Of a stretch of DNA of 52,651 nucleotides, positions 23,535-52,537 are shown one piece after another. Every line of letters begins with the position of its first letter. Position 1 is the first letter of the stretch. The notes under the pieces were generated by a model. The model saw nothing but the letters and a program-made list of their open reading frames with translations. It did no database searches and was not told where the DNA came from. Position numbers and translations under genes: made by a program. Source of the stretch: Verrucomicrobiota bacterium (GTDB lineage: Bacteria > Verrucomicrobiota > Verrucomicrobiia > Limisphaerales > Fontisphaeraceae); assembly GCA_037139415.1 (NCBI GenBank), contig JBAXGN010000024.1, positions 1-52,651 of the forward strand, given 5' to 3'.

Positions 23535-25514
23535 TCATCGTTCAGCCTCGGCCTGGCCTTTGCCGGCATCGGCTGCGCTCTTCGTTTTCCCGCTGGCATG
23601 CGCCTTTTCGAGGGCGGGCCTCAGCTCAGTAATGGTCGTTTCCGCTTCCTTGAAGCGGCGCTCGAGGTCGGCCTGTTCGAGTTCCTTGCGAATCTGATTG
23701 GCGATATACCGTCTTGCCGTGTCGGCCGGCATGTCCGCCGGAGTGGCAATCTTCACGGGTGTCTCCTCAAGGATCCAATCGTCGCTGCGCTGCGCGGCCA
23801 AGGGCACCCCGCGGCTGTTGACAATGTTTCCCATCGGGTTTCTCGCCCATGCATACCGGTAGTGAATGGGCTCAGGGACAAACTGGTTGCTGAGGACGAG
23901 CATGCGGTGGTCTAAATTAGGCTTCTCGCGATTACCTTTGGTGCCGTCGGCAAACCAGTTGACGTCGGCGGGATAGAACCGCCGATCCTTGCCGGCAATG
24001 GCGAAGCCGAGCAGCCGGCCGTCGCTGTCGTCGTGGGTCTTGACGTCGGTGCTCATCGTCAGGCGCATCGTGCTGCCGACCATCTCGACCTTGTCGATGG
24101 TGGGTGGCAGCCACCAGGCTTCGGCGTCCCGGCCTTTGAGGAGTTCGTAGCGTGCCACCAGCGCCCACTTGGCGGCCCGTTCGCCGACGGGGATCTTGAT
24201 CTGCGGGTGATACCAGGACTTGCGCAGATCGAAACTGCTGGCGAACCCAATATTCTTATCACCGGCAGCACGCAGGTCGCGGAATGTCCAGTATTGCGCC
24301 TCGCGGATATACGCACCCGCGTCAAACATCGGAGCGAGGAAGTTGTCCCGCGTCTGCGGCTCACCGGCCGTGCACAGCGAGAGGATGCAGAACGGCATCT
24401 GCGGATCGCCAAACGTCTCCCGCCATGCGGCGATCATCTTGCCGAACACCTGGCAGTACATCCGCGCGCCGGCGGAGCCGTTGAAGCAGTTGTTGAACCC
24501 CTGATGGAAAAGGGCGCCAGCCACGGCTAAGCCGCGGAGCGGTTGGATCACGCTGGCGTAACGACAGCCCGGGCGGTTATTGTCGGCGGCAGGGCCTGGC
24601 CGTAGGTCGCTCGGCGGCTGGCTTTCGGCCGGAATGGATTGGCCCTTGGCCCGCAGGTTCTTCATGCGGTTCTCGTACCCTTCTCTTCGCGCCTTGAGGT
24701 CGGCCTGCGGATCAAACGCGGCGATCTTCTCCTCCCATTCCTTGAGCATTTCCCGCGTTTCCTTGCCGTCGATTTTCCGCAGCACGTCCGCGGGCGTCCA
24801 CGTCTCAACGGTGGTCCCGCCAATCGAGGCATCAATCAGCCCGATCGGCACGCCACTGGCCATGTGGACCCGACGCCCGAAGATGTACCCGATCGCCGAG
24901 AACTCCGTGACGGTTTCCGGCGAACAGATGTCCCAGTCGCCCTTGCGAAAGTGCCGCTTGGACCAATCGCTCCATTCGTGGAGGCGTTCGAAGCTGTGGA
25001 CCGATGTAAAGCCCTTGCCCACCGGCATGGTCAGGAGCCGGATCTTCGGAAAGTTGGCCGAGACGATTTCCAACTCCCCGTCGTCAACGTTGCTGATGGG
25101 AAATTCCATGTTACTTTGGCCGCCCAGTATCCAGACGTCGCCGACCAGGATGTTCTCCAGCGTCAGCGTTGTGCTCTTTCCCTTGACCGTCATGGTCTGC
25201 GGGACTCGGTTCGCGGGACTCGGCTTGAGCGTCACCTGCCAGGCCCGATCCGCCGCCGCCCGGGCCTGGACCTCCTGGCCGGCGAACGTCACGACGACCG
25301 CTTCGCCCGGTTCAGCCCAGCCCCAGACGTTCAGCGATTTATTGCGCTGGAGAACCATGTTGGACTGAAAAACATTGGCGACGCACAGGCCCTGCCCGAT
25401 GGCGGGGACGCTGACCACATCCTCCTTCGGCATGGGCGTTTTTTCTGCGGCGACCGTAGCCAGCCCGGCCAGCAGCGACGCTAGCAGGGCGCTCAGAAAG
25501 ATGGTGAATTTCAT
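23535..25514 (-). CDS. Secreted sialate O-acetylesterase-type SGNH esterase
   Basis: With the ATG at 25514 the protein has a good signal peptide (MKFTIFLSALLASLLAG). An in-frame ATG at 25559 overlaps the upstream stop as ATGA and is the alternative. An N-terminal beta domain has VFQSNMVLQRNKSLNVWGWA and the SASA domain has the nucleophile block WILGGQSNMEFPIS, with LIDASIGGTTVETW and LFHQGFNNCFNG as later blocks. The family removes acetyl groups from sialic acids, and close relatives deacetylate plant polysaccharides such as xylan or pectin. The last 60 residues are charged, probably helical (RKELEQADLERRFKEAETTI) and end in an Ala/Lys/Gly tail, an odd addition. It is transcribed right after the alpha/alpha-toroid protein. 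Confidence 0.85.
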   Translation of the reverse strand: MKFTIFLSALLASLLAGLATVAAEKTPMPKEDVVSVPAIGQGLCVANVFQSNMVLQRNKSLNVWGWAEPGEAVVVTFAGQEVQARAAADRAWQVTLKPSPANRVPQTMTVKGKSTTLTLENILVGDVWILGGQSNMEFPISNVDDGELEIVSANFPKIRLLTMPVGKGFTSVHSFERLHEWSDWSKRHFRKGDWDICSPETVTEFSAIGYIFGRRVHMASGVPIGLIDASIGGTTVETWTPADVLRKIDGKETREMLKEWEEKIAAFDPQADLKARREGYENRMKNLRAKGQSIPAESQPPSDLRPGPAADNNRPGCRYASVIQPLRGLAVAGALFHQGFNNCFNGSAGARMYCQVFGKMIAAWRETFGDPQMPFCILSLCTAGEPQTRDNFLAPMFDAGAYIREAQYWTFRDLRAAGDKNIGFASSFDLRKSWYHPQIKIPVGERAAKWALVARYELLKGRDAEAWWLPPTIDKVEMVGSTMRLTMSTDVKTHDDSDGRLLGFAIAGKDRRFYPADVNWFADGTKGNREKPNLDHRMLVLSNQFVPEPIHYRYAWARNPMGNIVNSRGVPLAAQRSDDWILEETPVKIATPADMPADTARRYIANQIRKELEQADLERRFKEAETTITELRPALEKAHASGKTKSAADAGKGQAEAER

Positions 25515-27541: not shown

Positions 27542-27875
27542 TTTTGTGTATCATAAAGGGCCTTGAGAACTGCCTGGTAGGTTGGGCGCGGCTGGAACTG
27601 CTCGTCAAACAAGCGGGCCTTCTGCCCGACCAGCCAATGTTGGTTGACTGCTTCTGATACCAGCGGGTCCATGGGCCGAAATCCTTGTGGCTGATGCCGC
27701 CGCTGAACTCGGTGTGGAGACCGATGTCCTTGGGAATGGGGCCGGCCTTGCCGCCACTGCTCTCCTGAACGGCAGCGAAGGACGGGTCGGTGCCCCCTTG
27801 CGTGTAGAGCGGCTCGGCGGACGGCAAGCTGACAGTGAGGAACGCTGAGAATAGGGTAGTTGCTATGATTTTCAT
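27528..27875 (-). pseudogene. Chimeric pseudogene: N-terminus of the 29275-30147 paralogue joined to another gene's tail
   Basis: The first 74 residues after the signal peptide copy the protein at 29275-30147 (EPLYTQGGTDPSFAAVQESS, IPKDIGLHTEFSGG, WTRWYQ). An in-frame deletion of 28 codons removes the segment between two GGK/GK lysine-glycine sites. After WTRWYQ the match ends, and the frame continues as nonsense (KQSTNIGWSGRRPACLTSSS), because the DNA from about 27656 belongs to another gene read one frame over. The product would lack most of its fold. It is transcribed between the BNR_4 gene and the toroid gene. Confidence 0.7.
27538..27657 (-). pseudogene. C-terminal tail fragment of another hydrolase (GH10-xylanase-like)
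   Basis: In a frame different from that of the pseudogene above, the minus strand reads SEAVNQHWLVGQKARLFDEQ followed by FQPRPTYQAVLKALYDTQK and a stop. The pattern ARLFDEQFQPRPxYxAVLKAL is that of the end of GH10 endo-xylanases, where the barrel closes with 'LFD(E)..QPKPAY'. The remaining 300-odd residues of such an enzyme are gone. This supports a deletion that fused the 5' end of a jelly-roll gene with the 3' end of a former xylanase-type gene. The family name is from memory and is the weak point. Confidence 0.5.
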
Positions 27876-29274: not shown

Positions 29275-30147
29275 TCATTTGACACCTGTCCGGATCGTGA
29301 CCCCGGTGACAAAAATCATGGCATCATTGGGGACGGTTTGGCCTTTTTTCGAGCCACAATACATCCCCCAGCGGAAGCTGATCTTGTTGTCTTTGGCCTT
29401 GGGACCGGTCCCTTGGGTCACCAGCTTCCAGGGACCGGCATCGAGCGGCGCTTTCTGATATACCTCATAATCCGCTCCGTTCGCCCGGACTTTGACGCTG
29501 AGGGATTTGCCCGTCAGGTTTTGAGCCATGCTGATTTCCCGCTCCAGGCCGGGCACAGGCCGGCGGCGGAGGAAATGGAGCTCGCCTGCAGCGGTCATAT
29601 CAATGTGGAAGGGCCAAAGGAAAGCATTGCCCGCAGCGTCTTTGCCCTCGTGAAACAATTGGAAGATGCACGCACCGACCGGCTTCATGATCGTGTAAGT
29701 TCCTTCCCATTCGCGCCAAGTGTCGGGAGCGGCGGTGAGGTTGTGCGTGAAGATTTCGACGCGTCCCGGCGAACCCTTCTCGGCGTCGCCGCCGCGGATG
29801 TTTTGTTCGCCTTTGAACAGGCGGAACACCTGAACATTGCCGTCTTCCTGATACCAGCGCGTCCATTGGCCGAAGTCCTTGCGGTGGATGCCGCCGCTGA
29901 ACTCGGTGTGGAGGCCAATGTCCTTGGGAATGGGACCGGCCTTGCCAGCCTGTTTTTCCAGCAGCTCGTGGTTCACATGGATGCTGGAGCCGAGGGCGCC
30001 GCCCTTGTTGAATCTCTCGCCGGGTTTGCCGCCACTGCTCTCCTGAACGGCCGCGAAGGACGGGTCGGTGCCCTCTTGCGTGTAGAGCGGCTCGGCGGCG
30101 AGCAGGCTGGTGGTGAGGAGCAGGGTGAAGGCGTTTGTTGTTTTCAT
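29275..30147 (-). CDS. Secreted jelly-roll protein, polysaccharide-lyase-like
   Basis: A 290-aa exported protein with a signal peptide (FTLLLTTSLLAAEPLYTQE). It contains QWTRWYQEDGNVQVFRLFKG, GRVEIFTHNLTAAPDTWREW, IFQLFHEGKDAAGNAFLWPF and ISFRWGMYCGSKKGQT. Alternating aromatic strands and the RW-FR-K pattern resemble concanavalin-A-like polysaccharide lyases (PL7/PL14/PL20 type) or glucanase-like binding proteins. I cannot fix the family. Its ATG overlaps the stop of the sulfatase by 4 nt, so translation of the two may be coupled. A broken second copy of its first 75 residues sits at 27660-27875. Confidence 0.6.
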   Translation of the reverse strand: MKTTNAFTLLLTTSLLAAEPLYTQEGTDPSFAAVQESSGGKPGERFNKGGALGSSIHVNHELLEKQAGKAGPIPKDIGLHTEFSGGIHRKDFGQWTRWYQEDGNVQVFRLFKGEQNIRGGDAEKGSPGRVEIFTHNLTAAPDTWREWEGTYTIMKPVGACIFQLFHEGKDAAGNAFLWPFHIDMTAAGELHFLRRRPVPGLEREISMAQNLTGKSLSVKVRANGADYEVYQKAPLDAGPWKLVTQGTGPKAKDNKISFRWGMYCGSKKGQTVPNDAMIFVTGVTIRTGVK

Positions 30148-32069
30148 TTAACTTGGTCTGTCGGCACGCTACGGACGCGAATGCCGGTAAAGAACTCGGA
30201 GTCGGCGATGGGACGGTAGCGAGTGTCCTTGCCGGTTGTCCAGATCGGCGTGGTGGTGCCGTCGGCGTGACGAATCCGCAGATTGTCGAGATAGACTTTG
30301 AAGGTGCCGGGCTTGCCGCCTTTGAAGACGAGGCCGTGGCGCGGAAGTATTCCCGGTGCGCTGCTGCAAAGGCCGATGACGCGATGTTCCCATATGCCGG
30401 GACCGCCTCTGGGTTCAGGACCGGCCGCCTGCTCACGGCCAAATTGGTCGAACCCCTCACCGCGCTTGAAATTGAGCGAGATGGACTTGTTGTCGTTACC
30501 CTTGAACGGCGAGTAATAATATCCTTGCCGCAAGCTGTCGGCGGCAATGGCGATGTCATATTCCACGTAATCCGTGGCGAATTGATGGCCCTCGAACCCG
30601 GCGAAAGGAACAACGAGGGTATCTTTCGGTTTGGCCTTTCCCGTAACGGTAACACTGATTTCTAGCACCTCGCCCTCGGGCGCGGGTTTCGCGTCGAACT
30701 TCGCGGGAACGGGCTGATGCGTGAGCGCCGCGCCGAGGGATTCGACCCACGCGTTCATCTGGGCGGTAAGCGACTTCACCACGTCGGGATGCGCGTCGGC
30801 GACGTTCTTTGTTTCTGCGATGTCAGCGCGGATGTCGTACAAGTCGGTATGATCGAAGAACCGATGTAACCGCCAGTCGGCGGTGCGGATCGCGTCTTCG
30901 TTGTGCCACGCCCAGTAATAGCTCGCCACCGGGCTGGTGGTGTTATCGCGTAACGCCGGCCAGATGTTTTTGCCGTCGAGTGGACGCGTCGCGGGCATTT
31001 CCAAACCCGCCATGGCCATCAACGTGGGAAACATGTCGAGCGCACCGCAGAGGCCGTCCCACTTCCGTCCGGCGAGCTTGCCGTTCGGCCAGTGGATAAC
31101 CGTTGGCAGGTGTGTCCCGCCCTCAAAGACGCTGTGCTTGCCGCCGCGGAACGGAAGGTTGCTGCCATCCTTGGTCGCGCCATTGTCGCTGGTGAAGACG
31201 ACGATGGTGTTGTCACGCAGGCCGAGCTTGTCGAGTTCGGCGAGAATGCTCGCGAGATTTTTGTCCATCGCCTGTACCATTGCAGCATAGGTTCGTTTGG
31301 TTTCGTCCGTCACTTTCGCATCCACGCCTGCCAAGTCCGAGTCTTTCGCTTGCAGTGGTGCGTGGACAATATGAAACGGGACGTAGCAGAAGAACGGGCG
31401 GGCCTTGTTCTCGCGAATGAATTCCAAGACGTGCCCCGTGATCAGGTCCTCGGTGTAGCCGACGTCTTGGGGCCGGTATTCCAAATTATGCCACCAACTC
31501 ACCGGGCCGCGTCCTTGCACGGTGCGCCGCGTGAAATAATCCGCGCCGCCGCCATAATAGACCCAGGCTTCGTCAAAGCCGTGGGCGTTGACACCGAGAC
31601 CGCCTTTGAGTTTCTTGTTCGGCATGGACTTCCAAGCGTCCTCAAACGCCCGACGATATTCGGGCGTGTCGGGGTCTTCGCCGTTGTGCCATTTGCCAAA
31701 GATGCCGGTTCGGTAGCCGTTCGCCTTGAAACCCTCGGCGATGGTGGTTTCCTCTTTCGCAAGTTCACCGCCCACTTCCGGTCCGGTGCCAACGCGGAAC
31801 GGGTGCCGGCCAGTGAGCAACATCGCACGTGTCGGAGAGCAAACACACCAAGCCATGAAGTTGGGCAGTTCGACGCCCTGTTTGAAAAGCTTGTCAATTT
31901 GCGGCGTTGGGATGTTGCCGCCGGGATGCGCACTGATGTCGCTCCAGCCGAGGTCATCGGCCAGCATGTAAACGATGTTGGGCTTGGCTGCCGGCTTGGC
32001 TGAATCGGCGGCTGGCAGCGCGGCCAGCGGTGCCAGCAGCAGGGTGGCGAGGATGAGGATGTGTTTCAT
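30144..32069 (-). CDS. Secreted type I sulfatase with an extra C-terminal beta domain
   Basis: The ATG at 32069 is chosen because it opens the signal peptide (MKHILILATLLLAPLAALPA); the open frame upstream overlaps the preceding gene. The metal site starts with NIVYMLADDLGWSD. Cys77 in CVCSPTRAMLLTGR is the CxPxR site oxidised to formylglycine. TIVVFTSDNGATKDG and KWDGLCGALDMFPT are further sulfatase blocks. The sulfatase fold ends near residue 450. About 190 further residues (EVLEISVTVTGKAKPKDTLV, YVEYDIAIAADSL, KVYLDNLRIRHADGTTT) look like a beta-sandwich, possibly carbohydrate-binding. It needs a formylglycine-generating maturase, not seen here. Transcribed 34 nt after the GH28/49-like gene; likely periplasmic or secreted. 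Confidence 0.88.
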   Translation of the reverse strand: MKHILILATLLLAPLAALPAADSAKPAAKPNIVYMLADDLGWSDISAHPGGNIPTPQIDKLFKQGVELPNFMAWCVCSPTRAMLLTGRHPFRVGTGPEVGGELAKEETTIAEGFKANGYRTGIFGKWHNGEDPDTPEYRRAFEDAWKSMPNKKLKGGLGVNAHGFDEAWVYYGGGADYFTRRTVQGRGPVSWWHNLEYRPQDVGYTEDLITGHVLEFIRENKARPFFCYVPFHIVHAPLQAKDSDLAGVDAKVTDETKRTYAAMVQAMDKNLASILAELDKLGLRDNTIVVFTSDNGATKDGSNLPFRGGKHSVFEGGTHLPTVIHWPNGKLAGRKWDGLCGALDMFPTLMAMAGLEMPATRPLDGKNIWPALRDNTTSPVASYYWAWHNEDAIRTADWRLHRFFDHTDLYDIRADIAETKNVADAHPDVVKSLTAQMNAWVESLGAALTHQPVPAKFDAKPAPEGEVLEISVTVTGKAKPKDTLVVPFAGFEGHQFATDYVEYDIAIAADSLRQGYYYSPFKGNDNKSISLNFKRGEGFDQFGREQAAGPEPRGGPGIWEHRVIGLCSSAPGILPRHGLVFKGGKPGTFKVYLDNLRIRHADGTTTPIWTTGKDTRYRPIADSEFFTGIRVRSVPTDQVK

Positions 32070-43492: not shown

Positions 43493-45502
43493 TCATCTGC
43501 CTTTGGCGTCTTGCTTTTCCTGTTCGAGGGATTTCTTGATCGCGTCGTTGAAGTGCTTCTGATGTTCATCGGCGCTCAGTGCGGAGGGCGCGACGAGTTG
43601 GGCCGGATATTCGCCGCCTTCCCAGCGGAGATTGCGGATGTCACGCGGTCCCTGCCATGGTCTGGCGTTCACGTTCACTTTCTTTCCGTCTTTGACGGTT
43701 TCGCCGTTGGGGCTGAGGTTGAATTCGGCAACGGTCTGCCAGTTGGCCAGCGGCGCGGTGATTTTCGGATCGGTGGCCATCAGCTCGTTCAGACTGACGG
43801 CAACAGTCTGCCAATCGGGCGAGCCTTTCAGTTCCTTGACCACCGTGTAATCGAGGGCCGGTTTGCCGGGTGCAAAGACGCCCCACTCGTTGCTGATGAA
43901 TTTCACGACGAGCGCGTTGTCGGTTTGGGTTTTGATTTCGAACAGCAGTTTCGCGCCATCCGGCCCACGCCATTTCGGATCCTTCACCTTTCGCGTATAA
44001 GCGGACCAGAGCGGAGGATGTCCCCAGTTTAAACGATACCAGTCGTGCCAACCGCGGGAACCATCGTCAATCATCCGCTCCGGCCTGTCCGTCGCCTTCA
44101 CGCCGGCAGCCTGCAACTGCGCCGGCGATGAGGAGAGCACGCGGGAGCTGATGGCGAACGCGTCGCTATTTTCGTGGCCGGGCGACTGGGCGATATTCCG
44201 GTACTGCGCGGGCGTGTCATAGATCACATTCGCATAGGTGAAGATCGGTTGGGCAACGCTTAGAATGGGGCAGGCGGCTTTCCATTGGCTGCCGTCTTTC
44301 TTCGCCATTGCGTCGCGCCAGAAGCGTGTCAATTCGTGCGGATCAATTGAGTAATAAATGTCCACGCGTTTGACCGGCATCGTTTCGTCCGGGGCAACGG
44401 TGACGATCGGCACGCCGTCCGCGGTCTTGAGGTTCAATTCAATCTTCGGTGTCTGCGGCATCGTGAACGCGCCCTTCAAATGCTGCTCGAACCAGAGCGG
44501 CTGCGTGATCGCGTGCGCTTCGGTGTGGCGATGGTTCAGGTGCGGCGCGATGCTGAAGCGCAGGATGTCGTCGGTCACGTTGCGCCAGTTCCACGCCATG
44601 TTATCAATGTGCGCGTGGAAATCGTTCGCGGGGGAAAGCCAAAGCACCGGACATGTGATGCGCGGAATGTACGCGTTATCGGAAATGCAGGCGAACTCAA
44701 GCGGCGGCGGCTTGGATTTTTGGCATCCGGGCAGATCGGTCTGGCTTTCCAGAATATTGCCCGAACCGCCGCAGGACGGCACCGCCGCTTTCACGCGTTG
44801 GTCTATGCCGGCCAGATCAGTCGTGAGTTTGCCGCCCATCGAATGACCGCACGCTCCAATCCGCGCGGGATCAACTTCCGGCTGCTGCTCCAGAAAGGTA
44901 AGCGCACGCCGCGCCGCGATCAGCACAAGGTACCAGTTGCTGTTCCGCGGTGACTCAACGCCGTCGAGCGTGAACTCATCGGGCGTCAGCGCTCCGGCGA
45001 AATGATTCGCCTTGTTCCGCTGCGGCGGATGCGTGGCGTCGAGTTTGCCCCAGTCGGTTTGCGGGCCATTATACGTTTCCTTCGACCGTCCAAAGTTCAA
45101 CTTATTGCCGCCCCAGTTGAGCGACATGCCGGCATAACCGCGCTTCGCGAAACCGATCATGCTGTCGAGATTCGCCGACTGTCCGCCGCCATGCATCTCG
45201 AGGACGGCGGGCAGCTTGGTGCCGCCTTTCGGGAACGCGTAGAACGCGGCCACTTTTGCCGGCGCGCCCTTGAACACACCCACCTGATAGCGGACCAACC
45301 GACAGCTGACGCCGTCCTGTTCCCACTCCTTGAGCACCTCCGCCGCCAGCGGTTCATGGCGCGGATCATAACCCGACCACAGTTCCGCAACGTTGGTTGG
45401 CACCCTGCCATCCTTCAACGGTGGCAGGGAGTCCCCGGCCCGAATGTTCTCCGTATTCGCCACCAGCAACAGGGTGGCGAAGATTGCAAAGGTGTGTTTC
45501 AT
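43493..45502 (-). CDS. Secreted alpha/beta-hydrolase esterase (acetyl-xylan-esterase-like) with C-terminal beta domain
   Basis: The frame is open to 45910, but the ATG at 45502 opens a signal peptide (MKHTFAIFATLLLVANTENI) and is preferred; an ATG 21 nt further up is possible. The hydrolase fold has LPAVLEMHGGGQSANLD, the elbow RIGACGHSMGGKLTTDLAG (Ser about 220), the Asp in LWLSPANDFHAHID and the His in LNHRHTEAHA. This is similar to acetyl xylan esterases and dienelactone-hydrolase-like proteins. The last 250 residues are mainly beta and may bind carbohydrate. It would deacylate glycans outside the cell. A 50-bp element shared with the gene at 51666 lies upstream. About 220 nt separate it from the sulfatase downstream, so that gene may have its own promoter. 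Confidence 0.75.
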   Translation of the reverse strand: MKHTFAIFATLLLVANTENIRAGDSLPPLKDGRVPTNVAELWSGYDPRHEPLAAEVLKEWEQDGVSCRLVRYQVGVFKGAPAKVAAFYAFPKGGTKLPAVLEMHGGGQSANLDSMIGFAKRGYAGMSLNWGGNKLNFGRSKETYNGPQTDWGKLDATHPPQRNKANHFAGALTPDEFTLDGVESPRNSNWYLVLIAARRALTFLEQQPEVDPARIGACGHSMGGKLTTDLAGIDQRVKAAVPSCGGSGNILESQTDLPGCQKSKPPPLEFACISDNAYIPRITCPVLWLSPANDFHAHIDNMAWNWRNVTDDILRFSIAPHLNHRHTEAHAITQPLWFEQHLKGAFTMPQTPKIELNLKTADGVPIVTVAPDETMPVKRVDIYYSIDPHELTRFWRDAMAKKDGSQWKAACPILSVAQPIFTYANVIYDTPAQYRNIAQSPGHENSDAFAISSRVLSSSPAQLQAAGVKATDRPERMIDDGSRGWHDWYRLNWGHPPLWSAYTRKVKDPKWRGPDGAKLLFEIKTQTDNALVVKFISNEWGVFAPGKPALDYTVVKELKGSPDWQTVAVSLNELMATDPKITAPLANWQTVAEFNLSPNGETVKDGKKVNVNARPWQGPRDIRNLRWEGGEYPAQLVAPSALSADEHQKHFNDAIKKSLEQEKQDAKGR

Positions 45503-45924
45503 GATTATTCCGGGTGTTTTCATGCTTCCGTCATTGCCAATGTTTGGACCTTTTGCAGTGGATGGCCAAACCACTGGGAAACAGTTCCATTTTCGCCTCG
45601 TGCTTACGCTGCAATTGGGTTTCTTTTGAGGCGTTGTTATGGTCGAACCCCCTTTCGGAATTTGCTTTTGGGCACGCTTCATGCTTTCACTTATCGCGTT
45701 GCGGTAAAGGAGCATTGCTTTTTGAATTGAGCTCATATTCGAGCGGGAAGGCCATTTGCGTGCCTCCATGAACAGCAACGAGCAGGCAAGAACCTGACTT
45801 CCCAACCGAAAGCAGTGGCTTGGAGTTTTCTCGTGCGGAACGGGATCGTTGTCGGGACGTTCGGCGCGTGCAACGCGGCCAGTGACACGAGCAGCAGTCG
45901 TGAGGGTCAATCGTGCAAGTCATT
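45503..45924. other. Intergenic stretch with a 50-bp shared element and a long leader-like frame
   Basis: No gene is assigned. The minus-strand frame of the esterase continues open through this region, but its translation is low-complexity and rich in Arg, Ser and Lys. At 45671-45720 it includes a 50-base element shared with 52356-52405. I see no rRNA, tRNA or clear terminator. A promoter for the esterase gene is likely here. Confidence 0.4.
45671..45720 (-). promoter_or_regulatory. 50-bp conserved upstream element, copy 1
   Basis: 39 of the 50 bases are identical to 52356-52405 without a gap. The conserved cores on the minus strand are TTACCG, CGATAA and, at the far end, an ATG followed by CGTGCC. 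It lies 168 bp before the esterase start. A shared promoter, regulator site or leader peptide would explain this; coding similarity in the frame (YRNAI...MKRAQK versus YRNTI...MTRARK) means a leader peptide cannot be excluded. Confidence 0.5.
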
Positions 45925-48825
45925 TCATTTGACCACCTCAATGACTGGCGGATCGGTCGGAACCGGTGGATTCATCATCATTTGGCTGGTGCCGATGCCC
46001 ACATATTGTCCGGAGCGTTGGGCATCCGAAAGCGCAAGGCTGATGATGCCGCTGGCGGCCAGCCGTTTCCTGACGTAATCGGTCAGATCAATTTCGACCC
46101 AACCGGCTTTGGGGAAGGGTGCCTTGGTGATGAGATTGCCCAGCTTGGGCTGCGTATTCCAAGTGATGGGCTTCTCTCCCCGGGCGCTCCAGGTTTCATC
46201 CGGCACTTCCAACACCGCGAAAGTGACTTTGTCGAACTGCATGGTTGATCCAGCCGTTGTATTGAAGCGCAAGGTGGCTTTCTGGATCGTCTTTCCCTTG
46301 AGGGACGACAGGTCGAATTTTAAGAAGGGTCGGCGCCCGCGTTTCCCGACGTCCTTATCGAATTCCTGCACGGGGGCATACTTGGAGTAACCGAAAACTT
46401 GTTCCGGCCGGCCGGCATCCACATAGGTATCTTCTACGGCGGGAAAACGAATCACGCCAGGAGGGAGATCGCTTTTTGATTCGACGATCCACTCGCGGCT
46501 AAAAAAGGCCTCATCGAAAAAGAGATGTTCCGGATCATCACTCAACTTTTTGACAAAGACGGTTGCGGTTTGACCGCCTGCGGGGTTCTTGAAGTGAAGG
46601 TAAAGCCGGGTCCACCCGGTGACCTTGGCCAAAGTGGCGGTCGTTTCCTTTCCAGCGGCGTCGCGCACGCCGATCTGGACCTTCTGCGCATTGATGGTGG
46701 GCTTTACCCACGCCCAGTATTGATAATCGGATCCGGGCTTCAGGTTGGCCACGGTCTGTTCTAGCCCATTGGCACCCGCGCCAAGCTGCGCGGCCCCGAA
46801 GAGGCGGAAGGCCGGATCGCTGGCCGGATTGTGCCAACATGCACCCTTGGTGCGGAAAGGCTGCGCCGATTTGGTCCCCGTACTGACCCACGGGGCCAGA
46901 GTGTCTTTTTCTTCAAAGCCATGGTTCACCAGCAGGTTCAAGAAGGTAGCCTGTGGGCGAACAAAGGCGATATCCCGAGGCGATTTGAGGTCGCAACCGG
47001 CTTGCCAAGCGGGTTTTCCGAATGGATACGCACCGATATCGGGCTTGGCCCCCTCGGTGATTCCTTCCAGCGGCACTCCGGCCCCAATCGCCGGGGACCC
47101 GGGCTTGAGGGTAAAGTCGTAATTCCATGGCTCTTCCAACTTGTCGATCGGTTTGCCACTCTTGTCATTGAAGACCTCTGCCGGATTAATGGAGGAAAGA
47201 TTGGCGACGTAGGTCTGCCCCGCGAAAGGAGTCACGTTAAAACCGAAGATGTTATTCACCCACTGGCACCCGGCATAATCACCGCCGTGCCCGACGGGCA
47301 TGGAACGCTTGTACTTCTCATTGACACTGTCGAAGTCCGCCTCGGGGTTGGGGTTGTAATCGCTGAAGCGGTAGATGGTGTTGTTGTACACCAGCACATT
47401 GACCTTCGGCTCGTTCATGGCGAGGACAGGGATAACATTGTGATGGACGATGAAACCGGCGGCCGCATTATCCAGATAGATGCCATTGATATAAAGCAAC
47501 CGGCGGTAATCGGTCATGCATTGGTTGTAGGCGATCTCGGTGCCTTCCCCGTCCGACATTCCCGCGCCGAGACAGTTGGAGTCGCGAGCCAGAAATGAGG
47601 CATCCCGGAAGAAGTTATGGACGATCTGGCTATGCACCGTATTAATACCGAGCATTCGATCGCCAGACTTCTCCATTGTGTTATAAGCAAAGAGCTGTTC
47701 ATTACCACTCATCAGCACGGCGATGGCACAACCCTCTTCCGAGAGGTGGTGGAAATAATTGTTCACCACGCGGTTTCGTTCTCCCCCGATCACCAACATG
47801 GCTCTGCTCTTGGAAAAGGCCAGCTCGCTGTCGCGAATTTCGTTGCGCTTACCGTTCATTTTTGAGCCCTCCTGGTAGAGCAACTTCATCCCCTGGAGCC
47901 GGCAGTCGGTCGTTGTCTCATTCATCATCACGTTGCCGCCTTGCCCCTCGATATTTTGAATGACGATGAATTTTTTGCCACTCAAGTCCACCACCGACTG
48001 ACGGGAGGAAACTTCGATCTGGAGGCTGGACGGATTCACGCCGCCGGAGGCGCGATAAAAGATCTGTTTGGTCTTGGCTTCATAGACCCACTCGTTATCC
48101 GCATCCAGCAATGCGCGGGTGCCGGAGACAACGTAGGTGAATTTATAGTGCGGGTTCGGTTTGCGGTCCGAACTCAGAATCATTTTTTCGAGCGTGATGG
48201 TTTTCTTAACCGGATCAAAGGAACGAATCTTGCCCTTCTCCGCCCACCAACCGTTGTACCACTGGAGATACCAGATCTTGCCTTCCTGCAACCAGTTTGC
48301 AGGCTTGTGATCGGGCAGGCGAGAATCGGCGATAGTATCCATGCCTTTCTCCACCGCCCCGCTGTTGCTCACCGCTTCGACCTCGGCTCGTAGCGCCTCC
48401 AAAAAACTACCCTGCGCTTTCGGCCAGCGAGCCTCGATGGCCCGTTGCCCATCCACCAGAAGCAGGCTATCGCGTGTGCCCTTCGGAGCCGTGGCCTTGT
48501 AAACGCCATCCTTGTCAGGCTGCCAGCCAGTTACCGGGTCCAAGGCGGAGAGAATCACTTTTTCCTGTTGGTAGGGTTTGTAGCTGATGGGGCGTCCCGC
48601 TTCTCCGGAAGCCGTCGGCACCAAGGTTTCCCGGTAGGTTCCTGCCCGCAGGATGCAGGTATCGCCGGGCTTCAATTGGGACGAAGCCCGGGCAATGGTC
48701 CGAAACGGGAGCGCCAGAGTTCCCTGATTACTGTCCAGACCATTCTTGGCATCAACATAATACTCGGCAGCGTGCGGTCTCCCGGCCACCAGCAGGAGGA
48801 CAAGGAGGGAGATGGTCGTTTTCAT
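45925..48825 (-). CDS. Secreted beta-helix protein with carbohydrate-binding and CBM96/DNRLRE-type C-terminal domains
   Basis: A 966-aa protein with a signal peptide (MKTTISLLVLLLVAGRPHA). EYYVDAKNGLDSNQGTLALP begins a DUF1565-type start of a beta-helix. Coils include FIVIQNIEGQGGNVMMNET, RNRVVNNYFHHLSEEGCAIA and FIVHHNVIPVLAMNEPKV. A segment at about 630-780 (NLLVNHGFEEKDTLAPWVST) looks like a carbohydrate-binding beta-sandwich. The C-terminus at about 795-966 (FPAVEDTYVDAGRPEQVFG, FLKFDLSSLKGKTIQKATLR) is the DNRLRE/CBM96 family. The helix could be a lyase or glycosidase. The catalytic residues are not identified. It stands between TMEM43 and the esterase gene. Confidence 0.75.
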   Translation of the reverse strand: MKTTISLLVLLLVAGRPHAAEYYVDAKNGLDSNQGTLALPFRTIARASSQLKPGDTCILRAGTYRETLVPTASGEAGRPISYKPYQQEKVILSALDPVTGWQPDKDGVYKATAPKGTRDSLLLVDGQRAIEARWPKAQGSFLEALRAEVEAVSNSGAVEKGMDTIADSRLPDHKPANWLQEGKIWYLQWYNGWWAEKGKIRSFDPVKKTITLEKMILSSDRKPNPHYKFTYVVSGTRALLDADNEWVYEAKTKQIFYRASGGVNPSSLQIEVSSRQSVVDLSGKKFIVIQNIEGQGGNVMMNETTTDCRLQGMKLLYQEGSKMNGKRNEIRDSELAFSKSRAMLVIGGERNRVVNNYFHHLSEEGCAIAVLMSGNEQLFAYNTMEKSGDRMLGINTVHSQIVHNFFRDASFLARDSNCLGAGMSDGEGTEIAYNQCMTDYRRLLYINGIYLDNAAAGFIVHHNVIPVLAMNEPKVNVLVYNNTIYRFSDYNPNPEADFDSVNEKYKRSMPVGHGGDYAGCQWVNNIFGFNVTPFAGQTYVANLSSINPAEVFNDKSGKPIDKLEEPWNYDFTLKPGSPAIGAGVPLEGITEGAKPDIGAYPFGKPAWQAGCDLKSPRDIAFVRPQATFLNLLVNHGFEEKDTLAPWVSTGTKSAQPFRTKGACWHNPASDPAFRLFGAAQLGAGANGLEQTVANLKPGSDYQYWAWVKPTINAQKVQIGVRDAAGKETTATLAKVTGWTRLYLHFKNPAGGQTATVFVKKLSDDPEHLFFDEAFFSREWIVESKSDLPPGVIRFPAVEDTYVDAGRPEQVFGYSKYAPVQEFDKDVGKRGRRPFLKFDLSSLKGKTIQKATLRFNTTAGSTMQFDKVTFAVLEVPDETWSARGEKPITWNTQPKLGNLITKAPFPKAGWVEIDLTDYVRKRLAASGIISLALSDAQRSGQYVGIGTSQMMMNPPVPTDPPVIEVVK

Positions 48826-48879
48826 TTTGGACTATGGTGGCGTAATCTGCGGAGGAGCTTTGTCCGGTGCAGATGCTGG

Positions 48880-50049
48880 CTAGGGGGAGGCAAGCGGAGT
48901 GGTCGCCAGGTTACCTTTGCGGTTTTTTATAACCCAATACACCACGCCGCCGGCAACGGCCAGCAAGGCAATGCCCAGCAAGGGCCGGTACCAAATCCAG
49001 GCCACCGCGATGGTAATGAACGACAACGGCAAAGCGAATGCCAAGGCCAGCAGCGCGGTGCCAAAGCCCACGAGATTGCCCAGAAACGGGATGATATCCG
49101 CCAGCACCTGAATGGGCTTGAAAATCAGCAGGAATCCAATCCACATGAATACGATGCAGATGCCGCGCAGGATCCAAGTGAGCAGTGAATTATCTTTCTT
49201 GGCTTGTTGAAACATTTCCACGGCTCCATGTTCGCCAGGCACCAGCATCTCGACTTTATTGCCATTCTTGCTCACGAACGGCTCAAAGGATTTGCCCACT
49301 TGCTTGGACACCAGGCTGACGGTACAGGGCGTGACCACTTGGAACGCGACGCGCTGGTCGCCCACGATGGGGGAATCAGGGCGGGCGCCAAAATACAGGA
49401 ACCCTCCGGCTGGCTTGGCCTGGCCCTTGATCGCGCCCGGCAGGGAATCTGCTGCGGGAAGGGGCAACGGCGCATAGCTTTGAACCTTTCCCAAGAGCGA
49501 ACTGGAAAGTGCAAACGCGCCCAAGTTAACAGGACTGGCAACCGTTTCACGTCCGGGATAACGCATACTGGTGGGGTTGACATGATCTTGCTGCTGGCGA
49601 AATTTGGATGAATCCACCAGTTCGCTTCGCCACTCTTTTTTGTAAGTGTAGGTCTTTTCCTTGGTGGTGCTACCGCCCAGGTTTTTTGATGAGGTTTCCG
49701 AGGACGATTCGACCCATTGATACATCTCCGTATTGCGCTTTAATTTGAGCGCCTTGGCCATCACACCGAATTCCGGGTCGGCCAAAGTCTGGTCGGTCAC
49801 GACCTGGCCGGTTAGGTGAACCACCTTGCCCTCATTGGCGGGGTTCACCGGGTCGGCGGCGACCGATACGGCAAGTTTCTGCGCCTCGCCCAAAGCGGAA
49901 GCCGTCCGCACCGCGCGACCTTCATTCCAGAAAAGCGCGATGGTGCAGATTGGGATTAACACGAGGCCGAAAAGAATGCCCACCAGGCTGTTCTTGATCC
50001 GGCTAAACCATGATTCTTCGCTGAATTCAGTAAAAGTATCTTGTGACAT
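48880..50049 (-). CDS. TMEM43-family membrane protein
   Basis: A 389-aa protein. The start MSQDTFTEFSEESWFSRIKN and the segment GILFGLVLIPICTIALFWNEGRA place it in the TMEM43/LUMA family (PF07787), shared with animals. One transmembrane helix lies near residues 23-42 and three near 285-375 (ILRGICIVFMWIGFLLIF, LVGFGTALLALAFALPLSFI, LLGIALLAVAGGVVYWVI). The intervening domain (EFGVMAKALKLKRNTEMYQW, LGAFALSSSLLGKVQ) should be outside the cytoplasm. Its bacterial role is not known. It is the only clear multi-span membrane protein in this half and follows the PQQ-propeller gene. The gap to the beta-helix gene is 54 nt, so co-transcription is possible. Confidence 0.85.
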   Translation of the reverse strand: MSQDTFTEFSEESWFSRIKNSLVGILFGLVLIPICTIALFWNEGRAVRTASALGEAQKLAVSVAADPVNPANEGKVVHLTGQVVTDQTLADPEFGVMAKALKLKRNTEMYQWVESSSETSSKNLGGSTTKEKTYTYKKEWRSELVDSSKFRQQQDHVNPTSMRYPGRETVASPVNLGAFALSSSLLGKVQSYAPLPLPAADSLPGAIKGQAKPAGGFLYFGARPDSPIVGDQRVAFQVVTPCTVSLVSKQVGKSFEPFVSKNGNKVEMLVPGEHGAVEMFQQAKKDNSLLTWILRGICIVFMWIGFLLIFKPIQVLADIIPFLGNLVGFGTALLALAFALPLSFITIAVAWIWYRPLLGIALLAVAGGVVYWVIKNRKGNLATTPLASP

Positions 50050-50068
50050 AGTTCTCTCTTTCGTAAGC

Positions 50069-50200
50069 TTAGTTAGCGCTGATGCTCATCTTGAACCCCT
50101 TTGCGGAAATACCTTTCAGGCTCTGAGGGTTTTGCGCCCAACGGGTACCGGCCGCAGCGACGGCAATGAAACTCATTACCACACGTGAACAAATTTTCAT
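50069..50200 (-). CDS. Possible tiny exported protein (43 aa)
   Basis: An ATG at 50200 starts a short frame with a signal-like segment (ICSRVVMSFIAVAAAGTRWA) and 20 further residues (QNPQSLKGISAKGFKMSISA). It lies between the propeller and the TMEM43 genes, 19 nt from the latter. No family can be assigned, and it may be a leftover of a longer protein or chance. Only the good signal peptide and position argue for it. Confidence 0.3.
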   Translation of the reverse strand: MKICSRVVMSFIAVAAAGTRWAQNPQSLKGISAKGFKMSISAN

Positions 50201-50262
50201 AGCCTTAGCTTTGCTCCACAATTTCACTTCAGTTATTTCACTGTCAACGCGCTTCATGCGCC

Positions 50263-51597
50263 TCATTTCCCGGTGGCCGCCAAATCCACGCAGACGAGCT
50301 CCCGGTCGTTGCGCGCAAACAGGCATTTTTTCGCAAAGGCCGGGTGACTCCACACCACCGCGCGGCCAAAGGCCTTGTTGCTCGCGTCCAGCACATGGAA
50401 CCGGCTGATTTCCTCGTACCCTTTCGGTGAAAGCCGGGCGAGCATCAGGTCGCCCAACTCATTGAAGAGGAAAAAGCGATCCTCATGCTTGACCAAAAAC
50501 GCCGTGCCGTAACGCCCCTTTTTCCCCTCGCCGGTGGTCGGGGCTGTGGTTTGCCAAACGCGTTCGCCATCTTCGCGGCGGATGCACATCAGGGTGCCGG
50601 TTTCCACGTCGCAGCCGTAGATATGCTCCCCTTCCAGGAACGGCGTGGCCGTGCCGCTGTAGAGGGCATTCTTCGCCTGGCCTTTCCATACGAGTTCCAC
50701 GCCGGCCGCGCCCGGCTTGAGCTTGAGCAGCGCGCCCACGAGGCTGTAGCTGGAGACATACAGCAAATCCCCGTCCTGGCGCGGGGCGGCAATGGCCATG
50801 CCGTAGCTGGGTTTCAAGGGATAGGACCAGTTCAGCGTGCCGCGCTCAGGATTCAGGCTGTTCAATGAATCGCCATGCCAGAATAATAACTGCGGCTTGC
50901 CCTGATGCTCAATCAAGGTGGGCGCGCCATAGCCCGGCGTCGAGGCCGGCAACGCGCGCCAGCGCTCGCGCCCCGTTGCTTTGTCAAATGCCACCAACAC
51001 CCCGTTGCTCTGTCCCACCGCGCAGATCACCGTGTCCCCGACCATCAGCGGATGCGAGGCGTAACCCCACACCGCGGTCCTGGCGTCGTAATCCTTCGTG
51101 AAATCTTTGCTCCATACCACCTGGCCGGAACCTGCGTCCAGACACCAAAAGTTGCCTTCCGCACCCAGTGCATACACCCGATTACCCTCCACCGTGGGAG
51201 TACAGCGCGGCCCGCTGCCATAGGCGATCTTGTACGGCCGCGGATATTCATGCAGCCACAACCGCTTGCCGGTAGCCGCATCGAAACACAGGACCCGCTC
51301 GACACCGGCCATCTCATCCACATTGAACGAATTATTTTTCGCCTCGCCGGATTGCTTCGCATAATCCATCACATAAACCTTGCCGCCGGCTACCGCCGGA
51401 CCGCTATAGCCACCGGCTATGGGCGTGCGCCATTTAATGGGCAACCCGGTAGCGGGGAATTGAGTCACCACGCCGGATTCGTGCCAGACGCTGTCACGCC
51501 GGGGCCCCATGAACTGGGGCCAATCCTCGCCGATGACTGCGGTCGCCAACAGACAACCCGCGAGTCCAACCCATTTCACATAAATATTGGTCTTCAT
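50263..51597 (-). CDS. Secreted PQQ-type beta-propeller protein
   Basis: The ATG at 51597 opens a signal peptide (VKWVGLAGCLLATAVIGEDW), so it is preferred over the longer frame from 51690; product 444 aa. Repeated W-docking blades are evident: FDAATGKRLWLHEYPR, LDAGSGQVVWSKDFT, FDKATGRERWRALPA, ERGTLNWSYPL and IRREDGERVWQTTAP. The family includes BamB-like and PQQ-dehydrogenase-like propellers. Similar Verrucomicrobia and Planctomycetes proteins often have no known substrate; PQQ binding is not shown. It is followed by the small frame at 50069 and TMEM43, and preceded 68 nt upstream by the exported protein at 51666. Confidence 0.8.
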   Translation of the reverse strand: MKTNIYVKWVGLAGCLLATAVIGEDWPQFMGPRRDSVWHESGVVTQFPATGLPIKWRTPIAGGYSGPAVAGGKVYVMDYAKQSGEAKNNSFNVDEMAGVERVLCFDAATGKRLWLHEYPRPYKIAYGSGPRCTPTVEGNRVYALGAEGNFWCLDAGSGQVVWSKDFTKDYDARTAVWGYASHPLMVGDTVICAVGQSNGVLVAFDKATGRERWRALPASTPGYGAPTLIEHQGKPQLLFWHGDSLNSLNPERGTLNWSYPLKPSYGMAIAAPRQDGDLLYVSSYSLVGALLKLKPGAAGVELVWKGQAKNALYSGTATPFLEGEHIYGCDVETGTLMCIRREDGERVWQTTAPTTGEGKKGRYGTAFLVKHEDRFFLFNELGDLMLARLSPKGYEEISRFHVLDASNKAFGRAVVWSHPAFAKKCLFARNDRELVCVDLAATGK

Positions 51598-51665
51598 ATA
51601 GTATGAGGCTAAATTTACAAACTCGTACTCGTTTTTCCTGGTTGCATCTGAGTTTTCAGGCCGCG

Positions 51666-52367
51666 CTATTTGGAGGCAGGCGGGCGGCAATCTTCCTTGC
51701 TGACATGATGCACCCGCTCGGATTTCTTACCGCCAAGAAAATCAAGTTTAACCTCGGCAAGGTGCTTTTGTTTGGCCGCTTCAAAGTGAATGACCGCATC
51801 GTTTCGCTCCAGGGCGAACACCTTGCGTTTGCCATGCTCTTCGAGATCATCCAGCACCTTTCGCATGGCTTCGGCCTTCCGGGCTGGAATCAGCTCCTGG
51901 TTCTTCTCGCTCTTGTCAATTTTTTCCATCGCTTTGATCGCGGGGGGAATCTGAGATGCCGGGAGAAAGCCGCTCGCGTTAGGCTTGTAGAGGACCAGGT
52001 CGTAGATTTTGTCCGCTGCCGCATCCACGGTCATAACTTGGACCGCACCGCCGCCCGGCACCTCGGTAAGAAAGGTTCTCATGCCCGGCTCACAAACGAG
52101 CTGGAACTCACCGCCGGAGGGCAAATCAATCAAGAGCGTCCCATTGGTATCAAAGATCGGAGTTCTCATGAAGAAGCCGGTACGGTAGTGCTGGTGAATG
52201 TTGATAAGCGCTTTGCCGGCAGGCGGCGCTGCGATGCGAGGGACGGCCGTCACAATCGTGTCGGCGGCATGGCTTGTCGGTGGAAGGCACAGGACGAATC
52301 CGAGACAGAGTGTGAAGAAGTGAATCGTGGTCTGATTGATAAGCAACGATTTTCTGGCACGCGTCAT
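51666..52367 (-). CDS. Secreted protein of unknown function
   Basis: I do not recognise this family. With the ATG at 52367 it is 233 aa with a signal peptide (IHFFTLCLGFVLCLPPTSHA). The mature part has a beta-rich N-terminal half (RTGFFMRTPIFDTNGTLLID, GGAVQVMTVDAAADKIYDLV) and a charged, probably helical C-terminal half (KIDKSEKNQELIPARKAEAM, VLDDLEEHGKRKVFALE). There are in-frame ATGs further up (52421 and 52433), but the start at 52367 lies inside the 50-bp conserved element, at the same place where the other copy has an ATG. It is the first gene of the minus-strand run at this end. Confidence 0.55.
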   Translation of the reverse strand: MTRARKSLLINQTTIHFFTLCLGFVLCLPPTSHAADTIVTAVPRIAAPPAGKALINIHQHYRTGFFMRTPIFDTNGTLLIDLPSGGEFQLVCEPGMRTFLTEVPGGGAVQVMTVDAAADKIYDLVLYKPNASGFLPASQIPPAIKAMEKIDKSEKNQELIPARKAEAMRKVLDDLEEHGKRKVFALERNDAVIHFEAAKQKHLAEVKLDFLGGKKSERVHHVSKEDCRPPASK

Positions 52368-52405
52368 CCTCGCGTTTATCGTGTTACGGTAAGGGATCAG
52401 TGCTT
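52356..52405 (-). promoter_or_regulatory. 50-bp conserved upstream element, copy 2
   Basis: This is the partner of 45671-45720 with 39 of 50 identical bases, no gaps. It spans the ATG chosen for the gene at 51666. Both copies carry ATG then CGTGCC at the same offset, preceded on the minus strand by TTACCG and CGATAA. It could be a shared promoter plus translation start, or a common signal for a regulon of exported proteins. Confidence 0.45.
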
Positions 52406-52537
52406 GTCGCGCGTTATTCATGCCTAAAAACATACGCCTGCGCAAATTCTGGTCAAGCGCGTTTCCAGTGAGGCGAATTGGTTTTCAAAGGGTTTGGGTT
52501 GAAATCCGAATCATTCAGGTCGCTCAATTTCTTGTAC

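Follow-up and report, generated by a model that had tools for sequence, protein, structure and literature searches.

A dispersed promoter-leader repeat with a promoterless short form, probably of mobile-promoter type, in a Verrucomicrobiota genome

The window analysed here is a stretch of 52,651 nucleotides (nt), contig C24 of a 7.9-megabase draft genome (378 contigs; G000 below) of a Verrucomicrobiota bacterium. Two stretches near its end, 45671-45720 and 52356-52405, resemble each other, and an earlier note had described them as a 50-base-pair (bp) element repeated upstream of two exported-protein genes and as the likely promoter or leader of a regulon. We confirmed exactly that 39 of the 50 positions are identical without gaps and that, on the minus strand, TTACCG, CGATAA and ATG-n-CGTGCC stand at matching places in both copies. 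About 3e-5 same-strand pairs this alike are expected for independent letters of window composition, and chance is therefore ruled out as the cause. A 20-base pattern in the code of the International Union of Pure and Applied Chemistry, allowing at most 3 mismatches, matched these two window places only (shuffle mean 0.01), a circular test since the pattern was derived from both of them. The likeness reaches past 50 bp: copy 2 spans 52336-52463, and copy 1 extends from an ATG at 45736 to 45657. Both are members of a dispersed family with about 100 copies in this one genome. Two models of the family, R1 and R2 (see below), found the same two window places, the next best having expect values (E) of 0.07 and 0.17, respectively.

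Copy 2 is full-length, with promoter, start codon and leader at 52345..52463 on the minus strand (R2 positions 2-122 of 125, 75.2 bits, E 1.2e-22 in the window; it was among the 10 copies used to build R2), and belongs to subtype C of the long copies. A consensus scan placed its -35-like hexamer TTGACC at 52451..52456 (1 found against 0.3 expected in shuffles), the position held by TTGATT, TTGCTT or TTGCCC in other long copies. The -10-like hexamer TATGTT, placed by the same scan, follows at 52429..52434 after a 16-nt spacer, where other copies have TAGGCT, TAGGTT or TAAGCT, and an ATG at 52419..52421, 7 nt past the -10, is the predicted leaderless start. The diverged 58-base core lies at 52336..52392 (R1 positions 1-57 of 58, 35.7 bits, E 4.2e-10; among the 37 rows used to build R1). 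From this ATG an open reading frame (ORF) of 251 amino acids (aa) runs on the minus strand at 51666..52421 with the N-terminus MNNARQALIPYRNTINARMTRARKSLLINQTTIHFFTLCLGFVLCLPPTSHAAD; read from 52445, it matched no Pfam or NCBIfam family. Copy 1 comprises leader and core only, at 45658..45724 on the minus strand (R2 58-124 of 125, 50.4 bits; R1 at 45657-45707, 58.6 bits), and is one of 16 intermediate R2 matches that start between model positions 36 and 62. Its ATG at 45734..45736 stands at the leader-start position (ATGAGCTCAATTCAAAAAGCAATG; compare ATGAGCGCGATTCAAAAAGCAATG at C18:9442) and opens a 747-aa minus-strand frame (43493..45736) into an esterase-like gene (Pfam AXE1, E 8e-10), whose own likely start by gene call is the ATG at 45502 (MKHTFAIFATLLLVANTENIRAG). 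Judged by eye and with a simple hydropathy window, the genes behind both copies have export-signal-like N-termini, in line with the exported products named in the note.

The genome-wide scan that the note had proposed as a check revealed many more copies, so that the lack of further copies which the note had named as speaking against it does not apply. Searching with 201 bases around copy 1 gave 41 places in the genome at E <= 1e-3, copy 1 included, and an 18-base consensus piece matched 44 places at up to 2 mismatches (0 for the reversed pattern). From 47 stretches fetched from the genome, 37 cores were aligned (A2) into the sequence-only model R1 of 58 positions, and ten promoter-bearing copies (A3) gave R2, a promoter-plus-leader model of 125 positions. 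R1 gave 98 matches at E <= 0.01, with 150 out of 2764 first-look candidates scored, and R2 gave 120 (150 out of 2415 scored); the two sets overlap, so the numbers are not additive, and the weakest matches may be chance.

The family occurs in two forms. The short form is TTACCGCAACGCGACAAGTGAAAGCATCAAATGTGCCAAAAAGCAAATTCCTATCAGT; its copies are promoterless and sharp-ended, lie mostly between genes in both orientations, and share nothing visible left of TTACCG or right of CAGT. The long form has about 75-105 bp extra on the left and falls into four subtypes, A, B, C and D. Among the 120 R2 matches, 62 start at model position 35 or before (2-35) and hold the promoter or start-codon part, 16 start at 36-62 and 42 at 63 or later (63-79); 24 of these 42 begin at 73-75, the edge of the short form. 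Between long copies the upstream likeness mostly stops 67-115 bp out, just before the -35-like TTG. On the 3' side, no two of 85 sites were alike within 60 bases (blastn E <= 1e-3), one pair of overlapping sites excepted. Several short copies are identical to the cores of particular long ones: L028:2986-3043 and L036:2282-2339 to that of L014:3187-3244, L023:1697-1754 to that of L017:177-234, and L023:145-202 to that of L014:6974-7031. Repeated shortening at one place is one explanation of these identities, gene conversion among copies another. An assembly artefact was judged unlikely to have produced the short form: two other genomes, G013 and G249, hold copies with both ends, and a third, G247, has the 5' end alone.

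Rearranged copies were also seen. At L060, two promoter-leaders 3.6 kilobases (kb) apart (G000:C71:21254-21349 and 24901-24996) are identical in 96 of 96 bases, which suggests local duplication. A long copy at G000:C59:37380-37486 (L135) holds the core piece TTCCGCAACGCGACAAGT three times. At G000:C6:1078-1137 and C71:24210-24276 the first conserved block runs straight into the tail ...TTATCAGT, the inner bases (about 50) being missing, a shape that fits deletion between two similar blocks.

Promoter and start codon were examined at 62 places, namely 61 of the 62 R2 matches starting at or before position 35 (C23:36713-36787 was left out) together with C23:36950-37022. A TTG-type -35 could be placed in 60 of them, followed by a spacer of 16, 17 or 18 nt (20, 25 and 15 copies) and a -10 that is mostly TAnnnT, with TAGGCT, TAGGGT and TAGGTT the commonest (together 25 of 60). 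A start codon (53 ATG, 2 GTG) stands 5-8 nt past the -10 in 55 of the 60, and exactly 7 nt in 40; these fractions are upper estimates, because the placement score gave an ATG bonus. The long copies would usually carry, then, a sigma-70-like promoter and a start codon about 7 nt past the -10, with no 5' untranslated region. The frame from this +1 start stays open for at least 130 aa in 17 of the 55 copies, as against 1 and 0 for the other two frames; window copy 1, with its 747-aa frame, is not counted in these 55. Set against a one-third expectation, 17 of 18 gives p of about 1e-7, a rough value that is too small because the copies are related. A simple hydropathy window found a hydrophobic N-terminal stretch in 15 of the 17 long-open frames.

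The leader, about 110 nt long, has two conserved blocks, around CCAAAAGCAATGCTCC and GCCAAAAAGCAAATTCCTATCAGT. Across 49 copies all three phases relative to the start are used for the first block and what follows it (27, 10 and 12 copies), and in none of these phases do mismatches cluster at third codon positions; it is therefore the letters, not a peptide, that are kept or copied. The same DNA is read as KQCSLTASR in one group and as KAMLPNRIAAS in another, and in a third it ends as an ORF of 22-23 aa. This last ORF, mostly very basic (MNTKRERKRRRAKTNAPLPQRDK and relatives), is opened by the +1 start of subtypes A and D and was seen at L014:3187, L016:3054, L017:234, L019:4867, L020:3044, L015:3068, L024:6023 and G000:C18:41322; all end at the same TGA inside the core except C18:41322, whose end has diverged. 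It is a possible upstream leader peptide.

Gene context was taken from a simple gene caller, with long and short labels set by hand; 4 of the 85 sites, weak and not long, were left out. Three of the 29 hand-labelled long copies lack a recognisable promoter (window copy 1, L031:3108 and L034:3115). The downstream gene is co-directional in 22 of the 25 long copies that have a called one. The families behind long copies are diverse, comprising helicase-associated, VTC, FkbM-type and other methyltransferase, PAS, GH120/beta-helix, RHS, AAA, RCC1, SASA esterase and DUF5122/Big_7 proteins; 7 of 20 scanned downstream proteins had no family, and one more match (heparinase-like) fell under the cut-off. 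Only 1 of the 52 short sites lies inside a predicted gene and 3 overlap one, while 70% of the fetched DNA is coding. At short sites a co-directional gene lies downstream in 32 of 47 and upstream in 33 of 50 cases. An all-against-all comparison of 224 predicted proteins from the fetched stretches revealed no gene family recurring beside the copies, the largest cluster being 6 proteins in 4 loci. Neighbouring copies within 12 kb mostly point the same way (36 of 41, 5 opposite), more often than gene pairs 0.5-5 kb apart (235 of 364, 129 opposite; p about 8e-4), and on C177 and C279 genes and copies alternate in gene-copy-gene-copy runs. The only explanation we offer for the co-oriented clusters is that copies tend to lie between co-directional genes. 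A replication-strand bias was considered as a cause and dropped: guanine-cytosine skew of the fetched stretch, taken on the element strand, was positive for 29 of the 52 short copies and for 16 of the 27 long ones, with no clear link.

Some genes stop abruptly at short copies. Of ten junction flank pieces that were scanned, three have a domain boundary at the junction, four belong to no family and three give no telling boundary. Left of L028:7929-7986 an Rrf2 domain stops at profile position 67 of 132, and a protein kinase domain to the left of L021:6825 breaks off at 58 of 263 (E 0.003, below the Pfam cut-off); right of L053:3070-3127 a C5 DNA methylase that lacks its own start codon sets in at profile position 4. 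The N-terminal domain of a carbamoyltransferase, matched over positions 1-162 of 346, stops 97 bp before L021:4410. The right flanks hold different genes, an SASA esterase at the Rrf2 copy and an ABC transporter at the kinase copy. These stops fit insertion with loss of target DNA, later decay or draft misjoins. A supposed clean insertion at C226:8884-8941 was dropped; that copy sits between an old leader and a fragment of the second family described below.

Among relatives the family is patchy. A DNA search of 39 genomes (the own genome and 38 relatives) found matches in two, the own genome and G013. R1, run over 320 genomes of the order with stricter filters and 17 candidates per genome, matched four, the own genome included, with 4 places in G013 and one each in G247 and G249; the G247 copy has the 5' end and is matched as far as model position 49. 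One further record, with the same sequence as G247 (same order), was matched by a 25-letter consensus pattern. With R2, G013 yielded a single copy, which again leads in frame into a long ORF, while two sister-genus genomes and 35 other relatives yielded none; R1 likewise found none in the two sister-genus genomes. A family of about 100 copies in one genome is thus nearly absent from its kin and present at 1-4 copies in three genomes of other families.

We rejected a structured or previously known RNA as an explanation of the core: nothing in seven sources (the window and six loci) reached an Rfam gathering score, six single-strand folds were no better than shuffles, and of the 7 weak pairs in the 37-core consensus none shows two-sided (compensatory) changes. 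The consensus fold of 49 leaders gave no pairs in real or shuffled columns, the alignment being heavily gapped. There are no terminal inverted repeats, the ends TTACCG and CAGT of the 58-base consensus being non-complementary. A viral source was set aside after one exact 19-base pattern gave 0 matches in viral contigs.

A second, unrelated repeated promoter-leader, family X, occurs at 20 places in G013 and 7 in G000 (loci L011:1176-1262 and about 200-290, and L162-L188). It consists of TTGCCAAC or TTGACC, about 17 bases on a CAATATnG-like stretch, then ATGAAAAACAAGCCACCGGTAACAACGAACGAAAAGTTCGTTCAATATTACTGTT and then unrelated sequence. The order of parts is that of the first family, with an ATG at +1 and a fixed 3' end; family X has an inverted repeat, AACGAAAAGTTCGTT, and the first family has none. 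In 8 of 8 distinct copies read in G000 loci the start opens an ORF of 15-19 aa (e.g. MKNLSPVTTNEKFVQYYC) whose stop lies in or directly behind the leader end.

Three other loci deserve mention. One short copy lies 110 bp behind a reverse transcriptase (RT) gene (L039:3183-4598, minus strand) whose nearest NCBIfam family is the group II RT, far below cut-off. The locus (L039:3183-5612; G000:C132, about 15.5-17.9 kb) looks like a diversity-generating retroelement: a template-like copy at 5127-5301 and a variable copy at 5438-5612 share 136 matching bases, and 14 of 14 differences fall on A of the template-like copy. Within the window, 48880-50049 (minus strand) encodes a bacterial TMEM43-family protein (Pfam E 4e-79), and 27654-27871 and 29848-30149, about 2.2 kb apart and 82-91% alike, are probably parts of paralogous neighbours.

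Mobile promoters were reportedly proposed in 2012 by Matus-Garcia, Nijveen and van Passel in 'Promoter propagation in prokaryotes'. The term putative mobile promoter covers promoter regions that are highly similar although the genes behind them, within the same genome, are not homologous. The defining sequence features of that proposal are present here: similar promoters precede non-homologous genes at about 60 places, with subtypes that differ beyond a stringent identity cut-off, and the likeness stops before the downstream gene at the 85 sites, save for the overlapping pair. We consider it probable that the repeat is a dispersed gene-start module of mobile-promoter type with a derived short repeat, and not simply the mark of a regulon; some of the bacterium's genes seem to owe their start region to such copying. 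The full form would provide a sigma-70-type promoter, with a -35 TTGnnn and a mostly TAnnnT -10 set 16-18 nt apart, and, about 7 nt further on, a start codon followed by a leader of about 110 nt; given that short distance, the transcript probably starts at or beside the start codon and would be leaderless. On landing before a gene, the module would supply the start of both transcription and translation. Where the frame permits, the leader would become an N-terminal extension of an export signal; where it does not, the leader would end as a short upstream ORF and the gene would use its own start. Copies may have dispersed across the genome in the way suggested for mobile promoters, and the last 58 bp of the leader may have spread separately as the promoterless short repeat with fixed ends.

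Copy 1 has no recognisable promoter half, and no promoter-like pair was found in 45640-45900; the earlier idea of a shared promoter or leader stands, by sequence, for copy 2 and about 60 further places and fails for the promoter half of copy 1. Several observations weigh against the reading as a copied gene-start module. A few promoter placements (C181:4292 and C35:5362) look wrong, the ATG bonus favoured the proposed layout, and R2 was built from ten copies already having it. In 38 of the 55 copies the start does not open into a long frame. In five long-copy pairs the upstream likeness goes on for 149-432 bp, as would be expected if larger pieces had simply been duplicated there; these pairs and the fewer proven gene cuts slightly weaken the case for a copied module. 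Among 39 short copies with a clean 3' end there was no excess of 2-4 base target-site duplications, the left junction being shifted by up to 6, and no transposase is linked to the repeat, so that movement is deduced from distribution only. The genome is a 378-contig draft in which several contigs end at or near a copy, and draft misjoins at the repeat may affect it.

A conventional regulon, with a shared promoter-leader under the control of a single regulator or sigma factor and its likeness kept by selection for co-regulation, would account for about 60 shared promoters with conserved spacing, for the export-signal bias among in-frame copies (15 of 17) and for the retention of the CCAAAAGCAATGCTCC block in diverged copies whatever its reading phase. 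It fits poorly with likeness that, within a subtype, spans the whole upstream stretch beyond the hexamers, with the many unrelated downstream families and with absence from the sister genus. The dozens of promoterless copies, which lie in either orientation and in 15 of 47 cases are followed by a gene on the opposite strand, form the pattern of a dispersed element. We regard a regulon by itself as unlikely, ranked lower because copying better explains most of the repeat; the two are not exclusive, since copied promoters keep their regulator. Alternatively, the leader might be an N-terminal peptide module of the extended signal-peptide kind, inherited with an exported-protein family, the DNA likeness following from coding. 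The in-frame excess and leader peptides such as MPAVNKQCSLTASRQVAGVPAVQKSKFLLSLHLLVTLLLAAASAFAQQ speak for it, but the three reading phases of the 49 blocks, the different peptides read from the same DNA and the lack of a third-position excess make it very unlikely.

Two further proposals concern the short copies. That they are recombination sites of a cassette array, integron-like or served by another site-specific recombinase, is suggested by the co-oriented clusters and by the runs on C177 and C279; many copies, however, stand alone on their contig stretch, the core has no conserved fold, and in a search limited to the integron integrase (TIGR02249) no match passed the cut-off, the best scoring 85 bits against 265. 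We give this proposal very little credence. An origin as RNA-derived fragments of the long element, like short interspersed nuclear elements, or as fragments mobilised as single-stranded DNA, by way of the cell's RT or an HUH-type enzyme, would explain the 3' end fixed in both forms, the 5' end at one leader place, the lack of target-site duplications, the short copies identical to particular long ones and the broken-off genes at some junctions. Searches of the genome gave 2 RVT_1 and 8 Y1_Tnp matches, but neither enzyme is directly linked to the repeat; the RT adjacency at L039 occurs once among 98 copies and was noticed after the fact, and that RT looks like part of a diversity-generating retroelement, whose known work differs. 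We hold this origin to be quite unlikely. The gene-start module could also be taken further, as a mobile expression-and-export start whose promoter, leaderless start codon and multi-frame leader would let a cut or silent gene be expressed and often exported, and whose 58-bp end, processed from transcript or single-stranded DNA, would spread without duplications or hairpins and could sit at broken-gene junctions; family X would then be a separate instance of such a start in a relative. Such an extension is conceivable, if rather doubtful; the case for an RNA or single-stranded DNA route of the 58-bp form is circumstantial, resting on its fixed ends, the common 3' end, the lack of duplications and the one RT gene nearby.

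Mobile promoters have so far been proposed from sequence repeats. This one genome offers a large layered set, with diverged old copies, young subfamilies, and promoter-bearing and promoterless forms, in numbers sufficient to test the copying of a gene start as a unit with its start codon and export-signal extension. A relative has a second family of this design, unrelated in sequence, which points to a possible habit of this group of Verrucomicrobia and not to an isolated event.

A literature search, mostly without subscription papers, found no description of this promoter-leader family; a sponge-symbiont paper (PMC9600693, in the part available) proved a wrong guess as a description of such repeats. 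Several known systems share some of its features. Integron attC arrays differ in their integrase, for which no match over cut-off was obtained here, and in their folded attC sites, none of which was found. Miniature inverted-repeat transposable elements and small insertion-sequence derivatives are likewise short, dispersed and mostly intergenic, whereas the ends TTACCG and CAGT are not complementary and no target-site duplication was found. The extended signal peptide region of autotransporters is also an N-terminal extension before a signal peptide, likened here by description and not by sequence; in our family the DNA is kept in several reading phases rather than as a conserved peptide. Repetitive extragenic palindromic (REP) sequences and the REP doublets forming hairpins (REPINs), mobilised by RAYT transposases, are short intergenic non-autonomous repeats on the order of 100 copies (PMC8049555, in part), but our repeat has no inverted arrangement or hairpin. 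Putative mobile promoters resemble our family in that promoter stretches which are nearly identical precede unrelated genes within a single genome, and that no transposase belonging to them has been seen (PMC9208149, PMC4596501 and PMC8049555, in the parts available). Compared with these, the unit described here adds a +1 start codon and a leader whose in-frame reading can extend an export signal, and its promoterless 58-bp part has spread alone.

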